This document shows, piece by piece, positions 3 through 4,999 of a DNA stretch of 5,019 bases. The DNA is from Kiritimatiellia bacterium (GTDB lineage: Bacteria > Verrucomicrobiota > Kiritimatiellia > RFP12 > UBA1067), in the NCBI GenBank assembly GCA_017547265.1, contig JAFYQC010000033.1, positions 1-5,019 of the forward strand, in the 5' to 3' direction. Both the position numbers and the translations under genes were made by a program. A model generated the notes under the pieces. That model did not search any database, was not told where the DNA came from, and saw only the letters and a program-made list of their open reading frames with translations. How positions within the stretch are numbered: position 1 is the first letter of the stretch; each line of letters begins with the position of its first letter.

Positions 3-1046
3 GCCTATCGGAACGTATCAGTCCCCCCGCAGGCGAGGTTGTATCCACCGACGCGGTACATGGGTTCCAAGAGGAAGTTGCTCGGTGAGATATGTCGTGT
101 TGCGAGCCAGTTTGATTTTGGCAGTGTACTTGACCTGTTTTCAGGTTCAGGAGTCGTGGGTTACATGTTCAAGTCAATGGGTAAGACCGTATGCTGCAAT
201 GACTATATGGCGATGTCGGCGACATTCTCAAAAGCGATGGTAGAGAACAATGCGACTATGTTGACCGATGACGATGTCGTTCGACTGCTTAAAAGACCAA
301 AATCTGTTGATGATTTTGTGTCGGTAACATTCAATGGAATTTTCTTTACAGAGGAGGAGAACGAGAGGATCGATGTGCTACGGACGAACATAGCACGTCT
401 GAAGAATCCCTACAAGAGGGCAATCGCCATGACGGCGTTGATTCGCGCCTGTGCGAAAAAGCAGCCAAGAGGACTTTTCACGTACGTTGGCGAGAGATAT
501 GACGACGGGCGAAGGGATCTCCGTCTGTCGATAGAGGAACAATTTATGGAGTGTGTCAAATCCGTCAATGCGGCTGTGTTTGATAACGGACGGGTGAACC
601 GGTCTGTATGGGGCGATGCGTTGAGGCTTGAAGATACAACTGCTGACCTTGTCTACATTGATCCGCCGTATTATACGCCCAAGTCTGACAATGAATACGT
701 GCGACGCTACCATTTTCTCGAGGGTCTTGCTCGCTCTTGGAAAGGGGTCGAGATTCAGCAGGAAACAAAGACGAAGAAGTTTAAATCCTATCCAACTCCG
801 TTTGCCAGAAGGGAGGGTGCGGAAAAGGCCTTTGACGAGTTGTTCGCGCGTTACCGAGAGTCGATCATGATCGTTTCCTATTCATCCAACAGCCTTCCGA
901 CGAAGGAGCAGATGATGTCTTTGTTGGCGCGGTACAAACGGAACGTGGAGGTTCTGCCGATTGACTATCGTTACAACTTCGGGAATCGCTCTGGAGGTAA
1001 TGTGATGCGGCAGAACGTCAGAGAATTCCTATTCGTCGGATATTGA
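3..1046 (+). CDS. D12-class adenine-N6 DNA methyltransferase (5' end may lie outside the window)
   Basis: Transfers a methyl group from S-adenosylmethionine to N6 of adenine in a specific DNA site, and is probably the protective half of the restriction-modification pair with the next gene. Numbering from the TTG at base 39, the alpha-class motif order is visible: motif X RYMGSKRKLL (residues 6-15), motif I LDLFSGSG (31-38), an acidic motif II position at D55, a long middle part (about 57-200) that should hold the target recognition domain, and catalytic motif IV DPPY (208-211) in YIDPPYYT. The C-terminal part (about 260-335) looks complete. The frame is open back to base 3 without a stop. The TTG at 39 has a purine run directly against it with no spacer, so a start upstream of the window is likely; the TTG would give 335 residues. 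The stop is 12 bases before the endonuclease ATG, which suggests one transcript. The family assignment is firm; the target sequence cannot be read from the protein. Confidence 0.92.
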   Translation, partial: AYRNVSVPPQARLYPPTRYMGSKRKLLGEICRVASQFDFGSVLDLFSGSGVVGYMFKSMGKTVCCNDYMAMSATFSKAMVENNATMLTDDDVVRLLKRPKSVDDFVSVTFNGIFFTEEENERIDVLRTNIARLKNPYKRAIAMTALIRACAKKQPRGLFTYVGERYDDGRRDLRLSIEEQFMECVKSVNAAVFDNGRVNRSVWGDALRLEDTTADLVYIDPPYYTPKSDNEYVRRYHFLEGLARSWKGVEIQQETKTKKFKSYPTPFARREGAEKAFDELFARYRESIMIVSYSSNSLPTKEQMMSLLARYKRNVEVLPIDYRYNFGNRSGGNVMRQNVREFLFVGY

Positions 1047-1058
1047 GAGGTTGTCGAG

Positions 1059-3230
1059 ATGATTGAAATCTGGCAAGTGGGCAATACTGGTGTCAGGAAT
1101 CCAATGCGGATTCATGAGGCATTCAGGCTTTATGCCGACTCTGGGCTTGTGGGTAAGATTCGCGGAGTAGCAGGTGCGGTCGCCTTGACAAACTACCTGT
1201 GCGAGAAAGGAATTCTGCACAATGCGCCGGGCCGTGACACGACCGGCAGTTACGGTCGCAAGTGGAGATTGGTGTTCAACAAGAACGGCTTCACCTACGA
1301 TGAATATTCCGAGGCAGACGGGATTTCGCAGGCGGAACTGGGCCCAGTTGACGACATTACGCCTTTTGGCAAGGCGTTTCTTGTTGCGGACACCGTACCT
1401 GCTGTACAGGAGTTTTTCCTCCGCGCCTCGGCAATGCATATGGAAAAAATGTCGGACGGGGGAACGTTTTCTCCGCTCCGATGGACATTGGCCATCATGC
1501 TTGAAATCGAAAGGCAGACAGGTTCAAGCGCGGTGGGGTTTACGGAATTTTCCGCTTACATCCAGACGTCAAATCCGATGACGCCTGTGGAGAGTGTCGC
1601 TTCGGAGATTCTTGCAATGCGTGCTGGGCGGGCTGTAGCCGCCTCAAAGAAGAAGTTTGACAAGGAACTTTTTAAGCGCCTTGGACGTGACTACCCGAAG
1701 AAGGTCGAGAACTTTTCTGAATATGGCGATATGAACCTTCGTTATCTGCGTGCGACTGGCATGGTTAGGGCACAAGGGAAGGGCATTGCGATCATTGATG
1801 AAAAGCATGATCTCGCGGAGATTCTTGCGAGTGAGCAACGGAGTGACACGGCTCTTCTTTCGCGACTTCATGAACTCTACGAAGGAGCCCCTCTCCCGAC
1901 CGATGACATGGAGACGGCTAAGCGTGTTCTTTTGGGACTTGAAGACCGTCTCAGAAGACGAGGAATTGTCTTTGACGTTGATCACTCGCAGCTGCGTTCA
2001 TCTGCCGATGTAAACAATGCGCGATATCGCCTGGAGGCACTACTAGAAAATGACGAGGAGATTCTATACGCACGCGAGCAGAAGCAGAAGTGGAGTGAGA
2101 TTGCGGACTACATGACTCTTGTCATGAGCCGCGGGGGATTCAAGCGGTATGACGATGACACGGAGATTCGGGTGCCGAAAGACGAAGCCCCGGCTTACCT
2201 TGAATGGGTTGTATGGCGTGCGTTTCTCGCCATGAACACCTTGACGAATAAGCCATACGAGATAAGGCGATTTAAAGTTGACCAGGATTTCTTTCCGGTT
2301 GGTACTGCTCCCGGTAACGGGCCAGATATGATTGCGGAATACGAGGGATGCAAAATTGTCATTGAGGTCACAATGTCTGACAACTCCAGGCAAGAGGCAA
2401 TGGAAGGCGAACCTGTCCGTCGTCATGTTTATGATTCCATAGCAGGAGGAGGCAAGCCTGTTTGGGGATTGTTCATCGCAAAAAATGTAAACACGAACAC
2501 GGCGGAAACATTTAGGGTGGGTACATGGTACGACAAAGATGACGTTCGAACTCGTTTGAATATCGTGCCGTTGACGCTTTGCCAATTCAGGGATTACTTT
2601 GTGTCAATATTTTCGGGCGCGCCCCATCGAAACGGTGAGATTGTGGGGCTACTGGAGAGCTGTGTCGCGAGACGTGACATGGGGTATGCGTTGGAATGGA
2701 AGACGAGCATAGCATCAGAAGTCTCGTCGGTCATTCGAAAGAAGGGCAATAGTGCACGCATTGTTTCAGAGGTCGTGGCAGCGCTCAGGTTCCGCGAGTA
2801 TCTGCCGGTGTATACGCTGCAGGCGGCGTGCGGGTATTTCGGCGAGGGCGAGCCGGTGGAGCCGGATGGCTGGGTGAAGGTGGAGAACTGCGGGCGGCTT
2901 GACGAGGGGATGTTCGTGGTACGGGCGAAGGGACGGTCGATGGAGCCGAAGATCCATGACGGCGACCTGTGCGTGATGCGCAAGTACGAGGGTGGGAGCC
3001 GCAACGACGAAATCGTCCTTGCGCAGCACCGGGAGTTTTACGATTCCGACTCCGGCGGCGCGTATTCCATCAAGAAGTATTCGAGCGAGAAGGTGATGGA
3101 GGAGGATGGCTCGTGGCATCACGAGCGGATCACACTCTTGCCGCTCAACCGCGAGTACGAACCGATCGTGATCGACGCGAACGAGGATGGCGAGTTCACC
3201 GTTGTCGGCGTGTTGAAGGGCGTGCTGTAG
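1059..3230 (+). CDS. Type IIS restriction endonuclease (AlwI/N.BstNBI family) fused to a LexA/UmuD-like S24 domain
   Basis: Predicted to cut or nick DNA beside a short asymmetric site (family members recognise GGATC or GAGTC). Residues 4-18 (IWQVGNTGVRNPMRI) look like the AlwI-family N-terminus and support this ATG, as does GAGAGG eight bases upstream. The nuclease core spans about 375-510. E382 (LEWVVW), D423 (GNGPDM), E436 (IEVTMS) and E449 (EGEPVRRH) correspond to E418, D456, E469 and E482 of N.BspD6I; the last three keep the same 13-residue spacing, aligned from memory. This is a PD-(D/E)XK fold with Thr in place of the usual Lys. LFIAKNVNTNTAETF (471-485) and NIVPLTLCQF (501-510) are further family blocks. 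Residues of about 580-723 are an S24 peptidase domain with scissile Cys591-Gly592, Ser627 (GRSMEP) and Lys672 (YSIKKY). N.BstNBI is about 604 residues, so the S24 part is an extra C-terminal module. The fusion is read directly from one uninterrupted frame; its regulatory meaning is inferred. Confidence 0.9.
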   Translation: MIEIWQVGNTGVRNPMRIHEAFRLYADSGLVGKIRGVAGAVALTNYLCEKGILHNAPGRDTTGSYGRKWRLVFNKNGFTYDEYSEADGISQAELGPVDDITPFGKAFLVADTVPAVQEFFLRASAMHMEKMSDGGTFSPLRWTLAIMLEIERQTGSSAVGFTEFSAYIQTSNPMTPVESVASEILAMRAGRAVAASKKKFDKELFKRLGRDYPKKVENFSEYGDMNLRYLRATGMVRAQGKGIAIIDEKHDLAEILASEQRSDTALLSRLHELYEGAPLPTDDMETAKRVLLGLEDRLRRRGIVFDVDHSQLRSSADVNNARYRLEALLENDEEILYAREQKQKWSEIADYMTLVMSRGGFKRYDDDTEIRVPKDEAPAYLEWVVWRAFLAMNTLTNKPYEIRRFKVDQDFFPVGTAPGNGPDMIAEYEGCKIVIEVTMSDNSRQEAMEGEPVRRHVYDSIAGGGKPVWGLFIAKNVNTNTAETFRVGTWYDKDDVRTRLNIVPLTLCQFRDYFVSIFSGAPHRNGEIVGLLESCVARRDMGYALEWKTSIASEVSSVIRKKGNSARIVSEVVAALRFREYLPVYTLQAACGYFGEGEPVEPDGWVKVENCGRLDEGMFVVRAKGRSMEPKIHDGDLCVMRKYEGGSRNDEIVLAQHREFYDSDSGGAYSIKKYSSEKVMEEDGSWHHERITLLPLNREYEPIVIDANEDGEFTVVGVLKGVL
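2781..3227 (+). other. S24 (LexA/UmuD-like) autoprotease domain encoded within the endonuclease gene
   Basis: This is the domain-coding region for residues of about 575-723. It follows the UmuD/LexA C-terminal layout in order: a cleavage segment LQAACGYFGEGEP (587-599) with Cys591-Gly592 where UmuD has Cys24-Gly25; FVVRAKGRSMEPKIHDGDL (619-637) with the nucleophile Ser627; YSIKKYSSEK (669-678) with Lys672 at the general-base position; and a C-terminal block LLPLNREYEPIVID (693-706) close to LIPMNSAYSPITIS of UmuD. All residues needed for RecA-stimulated self-cleavage appear present. In this family the domain also dimerises, so it could serve as a dimerisation module. The DNA here is richer in GC than the nuclease part (about 65% over 2821-3060 against about 49% over 2281-2400, hand-counted). 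Confidence 0.85.
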
Positions 3231-3279: not shown

Positions 3280-3308
3280 TTGACGGAGATTATCTAAAAT
3301 GATAACAT
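3280..3308 (+). promoter_or_regulatory. Possible sigma-70-type promoter for the toxin-antitoxin operon
   Basis: TTGACG at 3280-3285 matches five of six -35 positions and lies 17 bases before TAACAT at 3303-3308, a weak -10 matching four of six. Transcription would begin near 3315 and leave a leader of about 30 bases before the preferred toxin ATG at 3347. The surrounding 3258-3310 stretch is A/T-rich relative to the flanking genes. This rests on consensus matching by eye only; TAAAAT at 3295-3300 is a better -10 hexamer but has wrong spacing. Confidence 0.35.
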
Positions 3309-3334
3309 GTCCGGCGAACCCGAAGGCAGGAAAC

Positions 3335-3339
3335 GGAGG
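3335..3339 (+). promoter_or_regulatory. Ribosome binding site GGAGG deciding the toxin start at 3347
   Basis: A perfect GGAGG sits seven bases before ATG 3347. The upstream in-frame ATG at 3299 has a weaker CGGAG at 3284-3288 with a 10-base spacer and would lie upstream of the predicted transcription start. The site therefore favours a 127-residue rather than a 143-residue toxin. Confidence 0.75.
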
Positions 3340-3346
3340 TAGGAAG

Positions 3347-3730
3347 ATGGCAAAGAAGAAAAAAACGAGAAAACAGGCGGCGGCAAGCACGGCGGTTGCT
3401 GTTGAACCCGCGAGCGGCAAGCGTATCGAATTTACGCCTGGCGCATGGCGGTTCTACAACGCGCAGAGCGAAGCGGTCAAGGCGGCTTTCGGCGACGCAT
3501 TGGCGAAACTAGAGACGGATGGACGACTCGTGCCACCGCAGGGCAAGCCCATAGCTCCAAACCTCTACGAAATACGTGTTAAGGTGAACCCGAACCAGTA
3601 CAGGCTTTTCTATTGTTACTTCGACCCGAACGGCGTACTTGTCCTTTCCGGCTTCGTGAAAAAGACGCGAAAGACCCCGCAGCACGAAATCGACAAGGCA
3701 AAGCGTATACGTGGGGAGGTGTTGAAATGA
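3347..3730 (+). CDS. RelE/HigB-type toxin, phage Gp49-like family (type II toxin-antitoxin)
   Basis: A 127-residue basic protein and probable toxin of a HigBA-like module; relatives fold like RelE and usually cut mRNA at the ribosome. The diagnostic part is C-terminal: KPIAPNLYEIRVKVNPNQYR (67-86) followed by LFYCYFDPNGVLVLSGFVKK (87-106) and TRKTPQHEIDKAKR (107-120). This is the Gp49-like (PF05973-type) pattern of a LYEIR strand, a YR-FY strand, a G-F-KK strand and a TP-EI-A helix. Conserved basic residues (R77, R86, K105, K106, R109) are candidate RNA-contacting positions. The first 25 or so residues are a Lys- and Ala-rich tail (MAKKKKTRKQAAAS) that is longer than is usual for the family and looks disordered. 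The stop codon overlaps the start of the antitoxin gene (ATGA), so the two are translationally coupled, and the toxin-first order is typical of HigBA. Substrate and actual toxicity cannot be read from sequence. Confidence 0.85.
   Translation: MAKKKKTRKQAAASTAVAVEPASGKRIEFTPGAWRFYNAQSEAVKAAFGDALAKLETDGRLVPPQGKPIAPNLYEIRVKVNPNQYRLFYCYFDPNGVLVLSGFVKKTRKTPQHEIDKAKRIRGEVLK
3715..3719 (+). promoter_or_regulatory. Ribosome binding site GGAGG deciding the antitoxin start at 3727
   Basis: GGAGG within a GGGGAGG run lies seven bases before ATG 3727, inside the end of the toxin gene. Spacing equals that of the toxin gene's own site. It selects the ATG of the ATGA overlap over the longer in-frame start at 3613, which would bury 38 codons in the toxin gene. 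Confidence 0.8.
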
Positions 3731-4200
3731 GCCGTGTAATTGACATGACGAAAGTTGTACCTGGGGCGTGGGAAACGATCAAGGCGCGACGGAGCGAGCA
3801 GTTTCGGCGCGATCCCAAGGCCAAGGCTGCGTGGAAAAAGCGCGCGGAGCGGAGTGCAGAGCGCAGGGTGAGAGCGGACGCGAAGATGTATTCTCGTGAA
3901 CACGGGAACTACCTCGATTCGCTCCGGCGCGACTGCCCCGGTTTTGCGGAGGGTGAGAACGCGGAGCGGACGGCGACCGCACTCAAGGCGGCGATGCTGG
4001 ACGCGCGGGACAGGAGCGGATTGACTCAAGCCGAGATCGCAGCGAGGATGGGCGTAAGACCGTCTAACCTTTCTCGCCTTCTCCATGGTAACGGTGGCGT
4101 TAATGGCGCGACGTTCGCCGCTTTTCTGAGGGCTTGCGGCTTTGGTTTCGACATTCGCATATTTCCCTTTCCGGACACAGAATACAAGGCCGGCGTTTAA
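3727..4200 (+). CDS. XRE-family helix-turn-helix antitoxin of the HigBA-like module
   Basis: A 157-residue protein that should bind and neutralise the toxin encoded just upstream and repress the shared operon. The DNA-binding part is a Cro/CI-type helix-turn-helix at about 82-140: ATALKAAMLDARDRSGLTQA leads into EIAARMGVRPSNLSRLLHG (103-121), with GLTQAEIAARMG as the first two helices and RPSNLSRLL as the recognition helix. The end, LRACGFGFDIRIFP (134-147), is the usual tail of HigA-like antitoxins. The first 75 residues are unusual: a highly basic, Arg/Lys/Ala-rich segment (about 19-52) predicted helical, then YLDSLRRDCPGFAEGENAER (62-81). Many relatives are near 100 residues, so this is a substantial N-terminal extension, perhaps the toxin-binding part. 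The start overlaps the toxin stop by four bases. Autoregulation is family knowledge; no operator palindrome was found with confidence. Confidence 0.85.
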   Translation: MSRVIDMTKVVPGAWETIKARRSEQFRRDPKAKAAWKKRAERSAERRVRADAKMYSREHGNYLDSLRRDCPGFAEGENAERTATALKAAMLDARDRSGLTQAEIAARMGVRPSNLSRLLHGNGGVNGATFAAFLRACGFGFDIRIFPFPDTEYKAGV

Positions 4201-4319: not shown

Positions 4320-4949
4320 ATGTCAGAACAACTGGTGGTACGATTCGAACATAACGGGAATCCCGTGGCCGGGGCCATTGCGTCGTGGGGTGCGTACACG
4401 AGCTGCGCTGCAACACTGACCGAGGATCTGCTCTGGGCTTGCGAGGATCATGTGAAGCTCTCGCGTCGAACCGGTGAAGACCTTGCCTGTTATCGTGTCC
4501 TTCGTATGTTGCGCGGCCTCGGATGCGGATTTGAAGATTGGGATGAAGAGCGTATTCGAGCAGAAGAGCTGGAACGCCGATTCCGAAGGGGGACTTGCAA
4601 TGTATATGTTTTCGACCCCTGTCTCTGGACGAATGTGGTCTGCTTGACAAATAGCGGTACCGTCGAGGCGTTTACGCCATGCGCTAATGGAACCGTAGCA
4701 ATAAACCTGGATCGGAAGACGGTCCGGTTTGATTCGTGGCACCGCCTGGGGCGGGACGAGTTTGAAATGGATTCTGAATTCAAGGCGCGCCATAGCCGAT
4801 TAATTGCTGATTTCGATCCAACAGGTGAAATGGGGTGGGCCGAGTTTCATTCAAAATTGCTGCCTATGCTCACAAATAACGAAACTCTCGCGGGCGGGCA
4901 CTTCAAGTCTCAGGATGGGCTGTATGTGTATGTCGCGATCGAGTGTTAA
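4320..4949 (+). CDS. Protein of unknown function, 209 residues
   Basis: I do not recognise this protein. The ATG at 4320 is supported by AGGGAG (4308-4313) with a six-base spacer, and the reading frame is clean with codon use like its neighbours. It appears soluble: there is no signal peptide or membrane segment. The N-terminus alternates strand-forming and polar residues (LVVRFEHNGNPVAGAIASWG, 5-24). The middle is helical and charged (about 66-91, rich in Glu and Arg). The C-terminal half mixes short strands such as GTVAINLDRKTVRFDSWHR (124-142). Nine cysteines are spread through it (29, 41, 57, 69, 93, 101, 108, 121, 209) without a CxxC pair, so a classical zinc ribbon is not indicated. It lies 119 bases after the antitoxin and may be a separate transcript or a cargo gene. 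No function is claimed. Confidence 0.7.
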   Translation: MSEQLVVRFEHNGNPVAGAIASWGAYTSCAATLTEDLLWACEDHVKLSRRTGEDLACYRVLRMLRGLGCGFEDWDEERIRAEELERRFRRGTCNVYVFDPCLWTNVVCLTNSGTVEAFTPCANGTVAINLDRKTVRFDSWHRLGRDEFEMDSEFKARHSRLIADFDPTGEMGWAEFHSKLLPMLTNNETLAGGHFKSQDGLYVYVAIEC

Positions 4950-4959
4950 AAATGGTGAC

Positions 4960-4999
4960 CTACTGCGTCAAAAGGGTTAGCCCCCTTTTGACACAGTAG
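4960..4999. repeat. Imperfect inverted repeat, 17-bp arms with a 6-base loop
   Basis: The left arm CTACTGCGTCAAAAGGG (4960-4976) and right arm CCCTTTTGACACAGTAG (4983-4999) are reverse complements apart from one C/A mismatch, around the loop TTAGCC. It begins 10 bases after the stop of the unknown gene, so a transcript would form a strong hairpin there. No T-run follows the right arm, so a standard intrinsic terminator is not shown. An operator for a downstream gene, an mRNA 3'-end stabilising hairpin, or part of a small mobile or repeated element are alternatives. Confidence 0.8.

Follow-up and report, generated by a model that had tools for sequence, protein, structure and literature searches.

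The window analyzed here is a 5,019-nucleotide stretch of contig JAFYQC010000033.1 from a Kiritimatiellia bacterium (assembly GCA_017547265.1). Its central gene is a single open reading frame (ORF) of 723 residues in which an AlwI-type restriction endonuclease runs without interruption into an S24 peptidase domain, referred to below as the tail. Both domains score above their Pfam cut-offs, RE_AlwI at residues 99 to 510 (E = 3.6e-91) and Peptidase_S24 at residues 613 to 718 (E = 1.2e-9), in agreement with an earlier note on this DNA that had read an AlwI/N.BstNBI-type endonuclease joined in one frame to an S24 domain. The features are collected in Table 1.

Table 1. Features of the window, with one stand-alone tail from another contig
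Feature	Position	Strand	Remarks
D12-class N6-adenine methyltransferase	3..1046	+	PF02086, E 3.7e-22; clipped by the left end of the window
AlwI-S24 ORF	1059-3230	+	723 residues
AlwI/N.BspD6I-type endonuclease part	1059..2756	+	residues 1 to ~566; putative catalytic E382, D423, E436
Junction and tail start	2757..2831	+	residues ~567-591; last residue is the P1 cysteine; GC3 climbs here
Predicted self-cleavage bond Cys591-Gly592	2829..2834	+	C 138/138 and G 138/138 rows
S24 autopeptidase domain	2832..3227	+	residues 592-723; Ser627 (2937-2939), Lys672 (3072-3074)
Gp49-like toxin	3299-3730	+	PF05973, E 4.7e-18; directly after the restriction-modification genes
HTH antitoxin-like gene	3727-4200	+	overlapped by the toxin gene
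ORF	4320-4949	+	209 residues
Inverted repeat	4960-4999		17 bases, one mismatch
Stand-alone tail L001 (= P0229)	L001:7947-8450		167 residues, Kiritimatiellae contig

The endonuclease part is intact. The AlwI family model PF09491 scores 306.8 bits on the window protein against a curated cut-off of 23.1, and residues 3 to 559 cover a PADLOC type II restriction endonuclease profile nearly end to end. The PD-(D/E)XK catalytic residues of AlwI-type endonucleases are present; E382 and D423 align with N.BspD6I, and E382, D423, E436, and T438 are each found in 62 of 62 aligned rows. Judged from its sequence, the window protein is in all likelihood a functional restriction enzyme of the AlwI type, with a LexA/UmuD-like autopeptidase tail on its natural C-terminus. 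We take GGATC to be the recognition sequence of the AlwI-type Type IIS endonuclease.

The fold, the Ser-Lys dyad, and the Ala/Cys-Gly bond of an S24 autopeptidase are all present in the tail, so that the earlier reading of an S24 domain with intact dyad and site held. The structure prediction that had been proposed gives an S24 fold: the AlphaFold model of the window protein has a predicted local distance difference test score (pLDDT) of 88 and a predicted template modeling score (pTM) of 0.82, with no disordered or low-confidence linker between enzyme and tail. The tail fold matches chains of LexA, UmuD, and lambda CI, some of them solved on RecA filaments. The window protein scores 18.9 bits with the LexA equivalog model TIGR00498 and 23.3 bits with the UmuD model NF007621, below their cut-offs of 110.95 and 110. 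In a study of S24 repressors of Bacteroidetes, self-cleavage is marked by Ala-Gly (Cys-Gly in UmuD) and a Ser-Lys dyad (PMC8565304). The predicted competence of the tail for self-cleavage is well supported by sequence, and its putative link to RecA and the SOS response, suggested by family membership and the retained residues, is reasonable.

A composite frame of this kind could be an artifact of assembly or gene calling, and the point in favor of one is the step in third-codon-position G+C content (GC3) at the junction, where 0.55 gives way to 0.86. A protein search returned 3442 hits, and of the 120 listed relatives examined for a tail, 30 carry it (P0001 to P0029 and P0076; P0027 has no precomputed S24 domain), the remaining 90 having no S24 match. 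The same AlwI-S24 fusion lies at genome loci L002 and L072, beside a large ORF of ~630 residues that directly precedes or overlaps the AlwI-S24 frame. Because independent homologs carry the same fusion, an assembly artifact is refuted, and we regard an artifact of either sort as having a negligible probability; the 30 other AlwI-S24 proteins among the matches listed, which are of the kind that the earlier note proposed to look for, rule out the unique assembly error that it had named as a danger. The AlwI-S24 observation is confirmed, and the finding proved larger than first stated. Since the tail, with a GC3 of 0.86, stands above both the enzyme part (0.55) and the methyltransferase (0.58), the graft in the window looks recent; the step from enzyme to tail is small in L002 (0.61 to 0.66) and L072 (0.51 to 0.58).

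Tails also occur far outside the AlwI family. A search with residues 570 to 723 found 328 proteins, 120 of them listed. Our main tail alignment has 138 rows, comprising the tail of the window protein and 137 others, taken from a set of 227 proteins found by shared short words. A scan of genome contigs gave 143 relatives among 204 pattern matches, with 80 loci kept; together with one viral-contig locus, the tailed set numbers 219. The tail is C-terminal in 212 of these and is followed by further sequence in 7, and a single tailed protein was present in the examined stretch of 79 of the 80 loci (L027 has two). The N-terminal parts of 218 proteins (that of L001 is too short) form 19 single-linkage BLAST clusters at E 1e-10, named from one scanned representative each (two for the AlwI and TnsA-like clusters), some clusters being distant members of one kind. 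The commonest partner is a Schlafen-group-3 helicase (cluster 0, which includes L014; 111 proteins), and restriction clusters account for 95: AlwI (33), Type II specificity subunit (26), HsdR (14), HaeIII type (8), Type IIG R-M-S chain (4), Type III Res in three clusters (3, 2, and 1, with weak matches for the cluster of 2), a second cluster of IIG-like proteins by a partial match (2), another Type II endonuclease (1), and HsdS (1). The other 12 proteins have no assigned partner; 2 are in a cluster with a sub-threshold TnsA-like match and 10 in six clusters without a match, one of which has a zinc ribbon after the tail. No lone methyltransferase was found among the representatives of the 19 clusters.

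The tail is, on sequence evidence, a portable module; the parts of the fusion are known, and their combination is new and repeatedly used. The earlier picture of one odd Type IIS enzyme was right about the fusion and too narrow, in that related tails are joined to numerous restriction and helicase proteins that are not related to one another. Tailed Schlafen-group-3 helicases come mostly from Bacteroidota among the loci. A topoisomerase-type zinc ribbon (PF01396) follows the tail in P0164, P0219, and P0223, and PD-(D/E)XK-like motifs were seen by eye only in P0134 and in P0139, P0123, and P0219, which have no assigned partner. The AlphaFold model of P0139 (cluster 5), at pLDDT 47 from a four-row alignment, was not used.

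Among the matches listed, the tail of a near-copy (P0001) shares 93% identity with the window tail, and the tail of an AlwI sister (P0002) shares 84%; the tails on an HsdS protein (P0121, 86%) and a HaeIII-type protein (P0122, 86%) are as near to the window tail as the sister's tail, and that of the partner-unassigned P0123 is at 84%. On a quick tree of 122 tails, with Shimodaira-Hasegawa-like approximate likelihood ratio test (SH-aLRT) values as its only support, the partner label requires 37 changes against a minimum of 19, and the starred branches force at least five changes for HsdR, at least four for AlwI, and at least three each for Schlafen, specificity subunit, and HaeIII partners. Reuse of the tail is repeated, but, from the label shuffles given below, swaps between partners are not free. 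A Gly/Ala-rich stretch of the GGRGATALP type precedes the tail in P0121, P0122, and P0123 and recurs inside P0123, as noticed by eye; perhaps it is a dispersed coding repeat that helped shuffling.

The cleavage site and the dyad are conserved almost without exception. A589, C591, G592, S627, and K672 are each found in 138 of 138 rows of the main alignment, and in a wider alignment of 218 rows (with L001 and without P0026) G592, S627, and K672 are invariant and 214 rows have Cys at P1, the other 4 (L011, L023, L034, and L039) having Ala; the scan pattern and regular expression behind these rows contain, and so favor, the site. P0026 has an insertion before the site and reads KAACG there. As a freer test, a profile search covered two groups chosen around known carriers of the tail, one phylum (387 genomes, 21 of them with a match) and one order (393 genomes, 9 with a match); 30 of the 33 matches lie within open frames of at least 450 residues. 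Among the 27 profile loci with new identifiers, 4 of which (L172, L173, L175, and L176) duplicate earlier loci, 25 align with both Ser and Lys, with Ala-Gly in 19 and Cys-Gly in 6; the script placed the other two, L172 and L159, wrongly in the alignment, and Cys-Gly and the dyad are present in them by eye. Known partner clusters were matched by 20 of the 27 (17 of them Schlafen type) and by none of the other 7. In a set of 30 other loci, two (L095 and L105) were misaligned and normal on inspection, and L120 is the sole exception, in which Ala-Thr replaces Ala-Gly while the Ser and Lys are retained.

The L120 tail, which has lost the Gly of the site and retained the domain, lends something to the reading that the tail mainly dimerizes the enzyme or recruits it to RecA filaments, self-cleavage being minor or later. 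The C-terminal domains of LexA and UmuD dimerize, and cleavage of both strands by a Type IIS enzyme requires two nuclease domains; both are further points for it. Binding alone would not require the site and both catalytic residues, which are kept in all 138 rows, and we consider this reading rather improbable.

The account that we favor, tentatively and at a little short of even confidence, is that RecA-triggered self-cleavage removes the tail and shuts restriction off, as a built-in form of restriction alleviation. DNA breaks or gaps would give rise to RecA filaments, on which the tail would dock; the docked tail would cut its own Cys591-Gly592 bond and depart. The enzyme would then have a new C-terminus, ...LQAAC, at the place where LexA-like proteins carry ClpXP degrons, and the trimmed enzyme would be degraded or weakened. 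The nuclease would in this way be turned off after cutting its own chromosome, or when it meets unmethylated sites arising from repair or from entry into a new host. LexA-like proteins are described as having degrons next to the cleavage site, the N-terminal part of LexA passing to ClpXP after self-cleavage (PMC5742171, PMC10584840), and ClpXP alleviates EcoKI restriction (PMC4231737, PMC11109961). Other tails would leave AAA, IAA, or VAA as the new C-terminus beside the cut, and host UmuD/LexA-like sites have Ala at P1 with varied P2 and P3 (13 of 23 loci, where the motif matched). The C-termini of tail-less AlwI proteins showed no degron-like pattern, the commonest last three residues being SEQ (28 of 90).

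Cleavage could instead turn the enzyme on, the tail holding a nuclease or helicase quiet until phage-induced RecA filaments free the active effector. UmuD is activated by cleavage (PMC8565304), the commonest partners are Schlafen-group-3 helicases, whose one scanned representative has weak likeness to AbiO and Nhi, and the absence of a low-confidence linker from the model suits a lock. The tail has been added to complete enzymes, however, whose tail-less relatives are full length, and the many unrelated folds that bear it, together with the Gly/Ala-rich stretch before the P0121 to P0123 tails, oppose a tailored lock. With related tails borne by proteins of unrelated fold, an outcome that does not depend on the partner, such as removal and degradation, would be likelier than such a lock, and we judge activation by cleavage unlikely, if still deserving of attention. 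A tail that cuts itself without RecA, set off by pH or some other stress, as a step in maturation or under stress, we hold to be decidedly improbable: RecA was found in all 26 host genomes sampled from the 80 loci (25 over the cut-off), an argument that is weak since all 14 control genomes have RecA too. In the same 26 genomes, Peptidase_S24 matched in all, tails counted, and LexA in 21 at E 0.001, tails and UmuD-like proteins included, with 3 over the cut-off; G009 and G012 have three tails each, G015 and G023 two, and the other 22 one.

Several points weigh against shut-off by RecA-triggered cleavage. The AAC end is suggestive only as a degron and is not proven to be one; L582, P583, and F594 are conserved too, and conservation of AAC may reflect only docking of the cleavage loop. 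According to PMC11109961, alleviation of EcoKI does not belong to the SOS functions. On specificity subunits and type IIG chains, the tail would impair methylation along with cutting, and if a phage infection gave rise to RecA filaments, the enzyme would be disarmed at the time of need. The lack of a disordered linker in the model makes a specific enzyme-tail contact possible in the window protein, and the L120 tail is possibly, from its sequence, a natural uncleavable form. Partners cluster on the tail tree, shuffled labels needing 70.6 changes on average and none of 200 shuffles as few as 37. A search for short proteins (82 to 260 residues) gave 78, many from short contigs; the stand-alone tail P0229 is L001 but for two leading residues, and its cluster is found on 7 contigs. 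A related tail lies behind a helix-turn-helix (HTH) domain in P0291 and P0292. The stand-alone and HTH-linked tails hint at an origin from repressors. L120, the stand-alone tails, and the way in which partners group on the tree slightly lower our confidence in the off-switch and in the wider reading of the tail given below.

Just upstream of the L001 gene and outside it, the DNA resembles the pre-tail stretch of HsdS fusions over 23 to 47 residues. Little points to carriage of the tail by phages or plasmids: a scan of IMG/VR with the whole protein gave 6 pattern matches and no relatives, one with the tail alignment gave 12 weak loci, of which only L081 (34% identity, AACG site) spans nearly the whole tail, none was found in phage records, and plasmids gave one match, at 35.8% identity.

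In the window, the methyltransferase ends 12 bases before the start of the AlwI-S24 ORF and matches the second half of the 643-position profile PDLC03261 (E 2e-161); it is probably the cognate of the AlwI-S24 enzyme. For the ORF beyond the toxin and antitoxin-like genes, Pfam, NCBIfam, and PADLOC gave no family match that convinces. The inverted repeat at the right, found by eye (CTACTGCGTCAAAAGGG / CCCTTTTGACACAGTAG), is a terminator or a repeat element.

It is possible, though we put it below an even chance, that the tail is a general post-translational circuit breaker, moved among Type I, IIS, IIP, IIG, and III enzymes and Schlafen-type helicases, that senses breaks via RecA and makes the enzyme destroy itself. 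Related tails on unrelated defense enzymes suggest a common means of switching these enzymes when DNA is damaged. What holds nucleases that could kill their own host in check while DNA is repaired, or when they enter a new cell, is an old question, for which ClpXP control is known for EcoKI; if the reading is right, a reusable self-cutting damage switch would be one answer for many restriction types at once, Type II and III systems would gain intrinsic alleviation, and the tail might serve as a tool for making a nuclease labile after DNA damage. The earlier note knew of no described Type IIS endonuclease with an S24 domain, and we found no description of an S24-restriction fusion among the titles and abstract openings listed from an open-access library (subscription papers, preprints, and REBASE lay outside the scope); S24, LexA, UmuD, and autoproteoly are absent as terms from the available text of a review of restriction-modification (R-M) systems (PMC12707154), as is "restriction" from that of an article on SOS peptidases (PMC3765255).

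Among known systems, N.BspD6I and AlwI (PF09491) are nearest to the enzyme part; N.BspD6I stops where the tail of the window protein starts, and 90 of the 120 relatives listed have no S24 tail. With LexA, UmuD, HdiR/IrvR, and lambda CI the tail has in common the peptidase fold, the Ala/Cys-Gly bond, and the Ser-Lys dyad, whereas the N-terminal part is a nuclease rather than an HTH domain or polymerase subunit. The proposed circuit would resemble ClpXP alleviation of EcoKI in that restriction would fall when DNA is damaged or when host DNA is unmodified; EcoKI HsdR is not known to have an S24 tail. The EcoKI degron is described as unidentified (PMC4231737). C proteins, sometimes as C-endonuclease fusions, control Type II R-M systems (PMC12707154), and they too control restriction, but by transcription and not by self-proteolysis.
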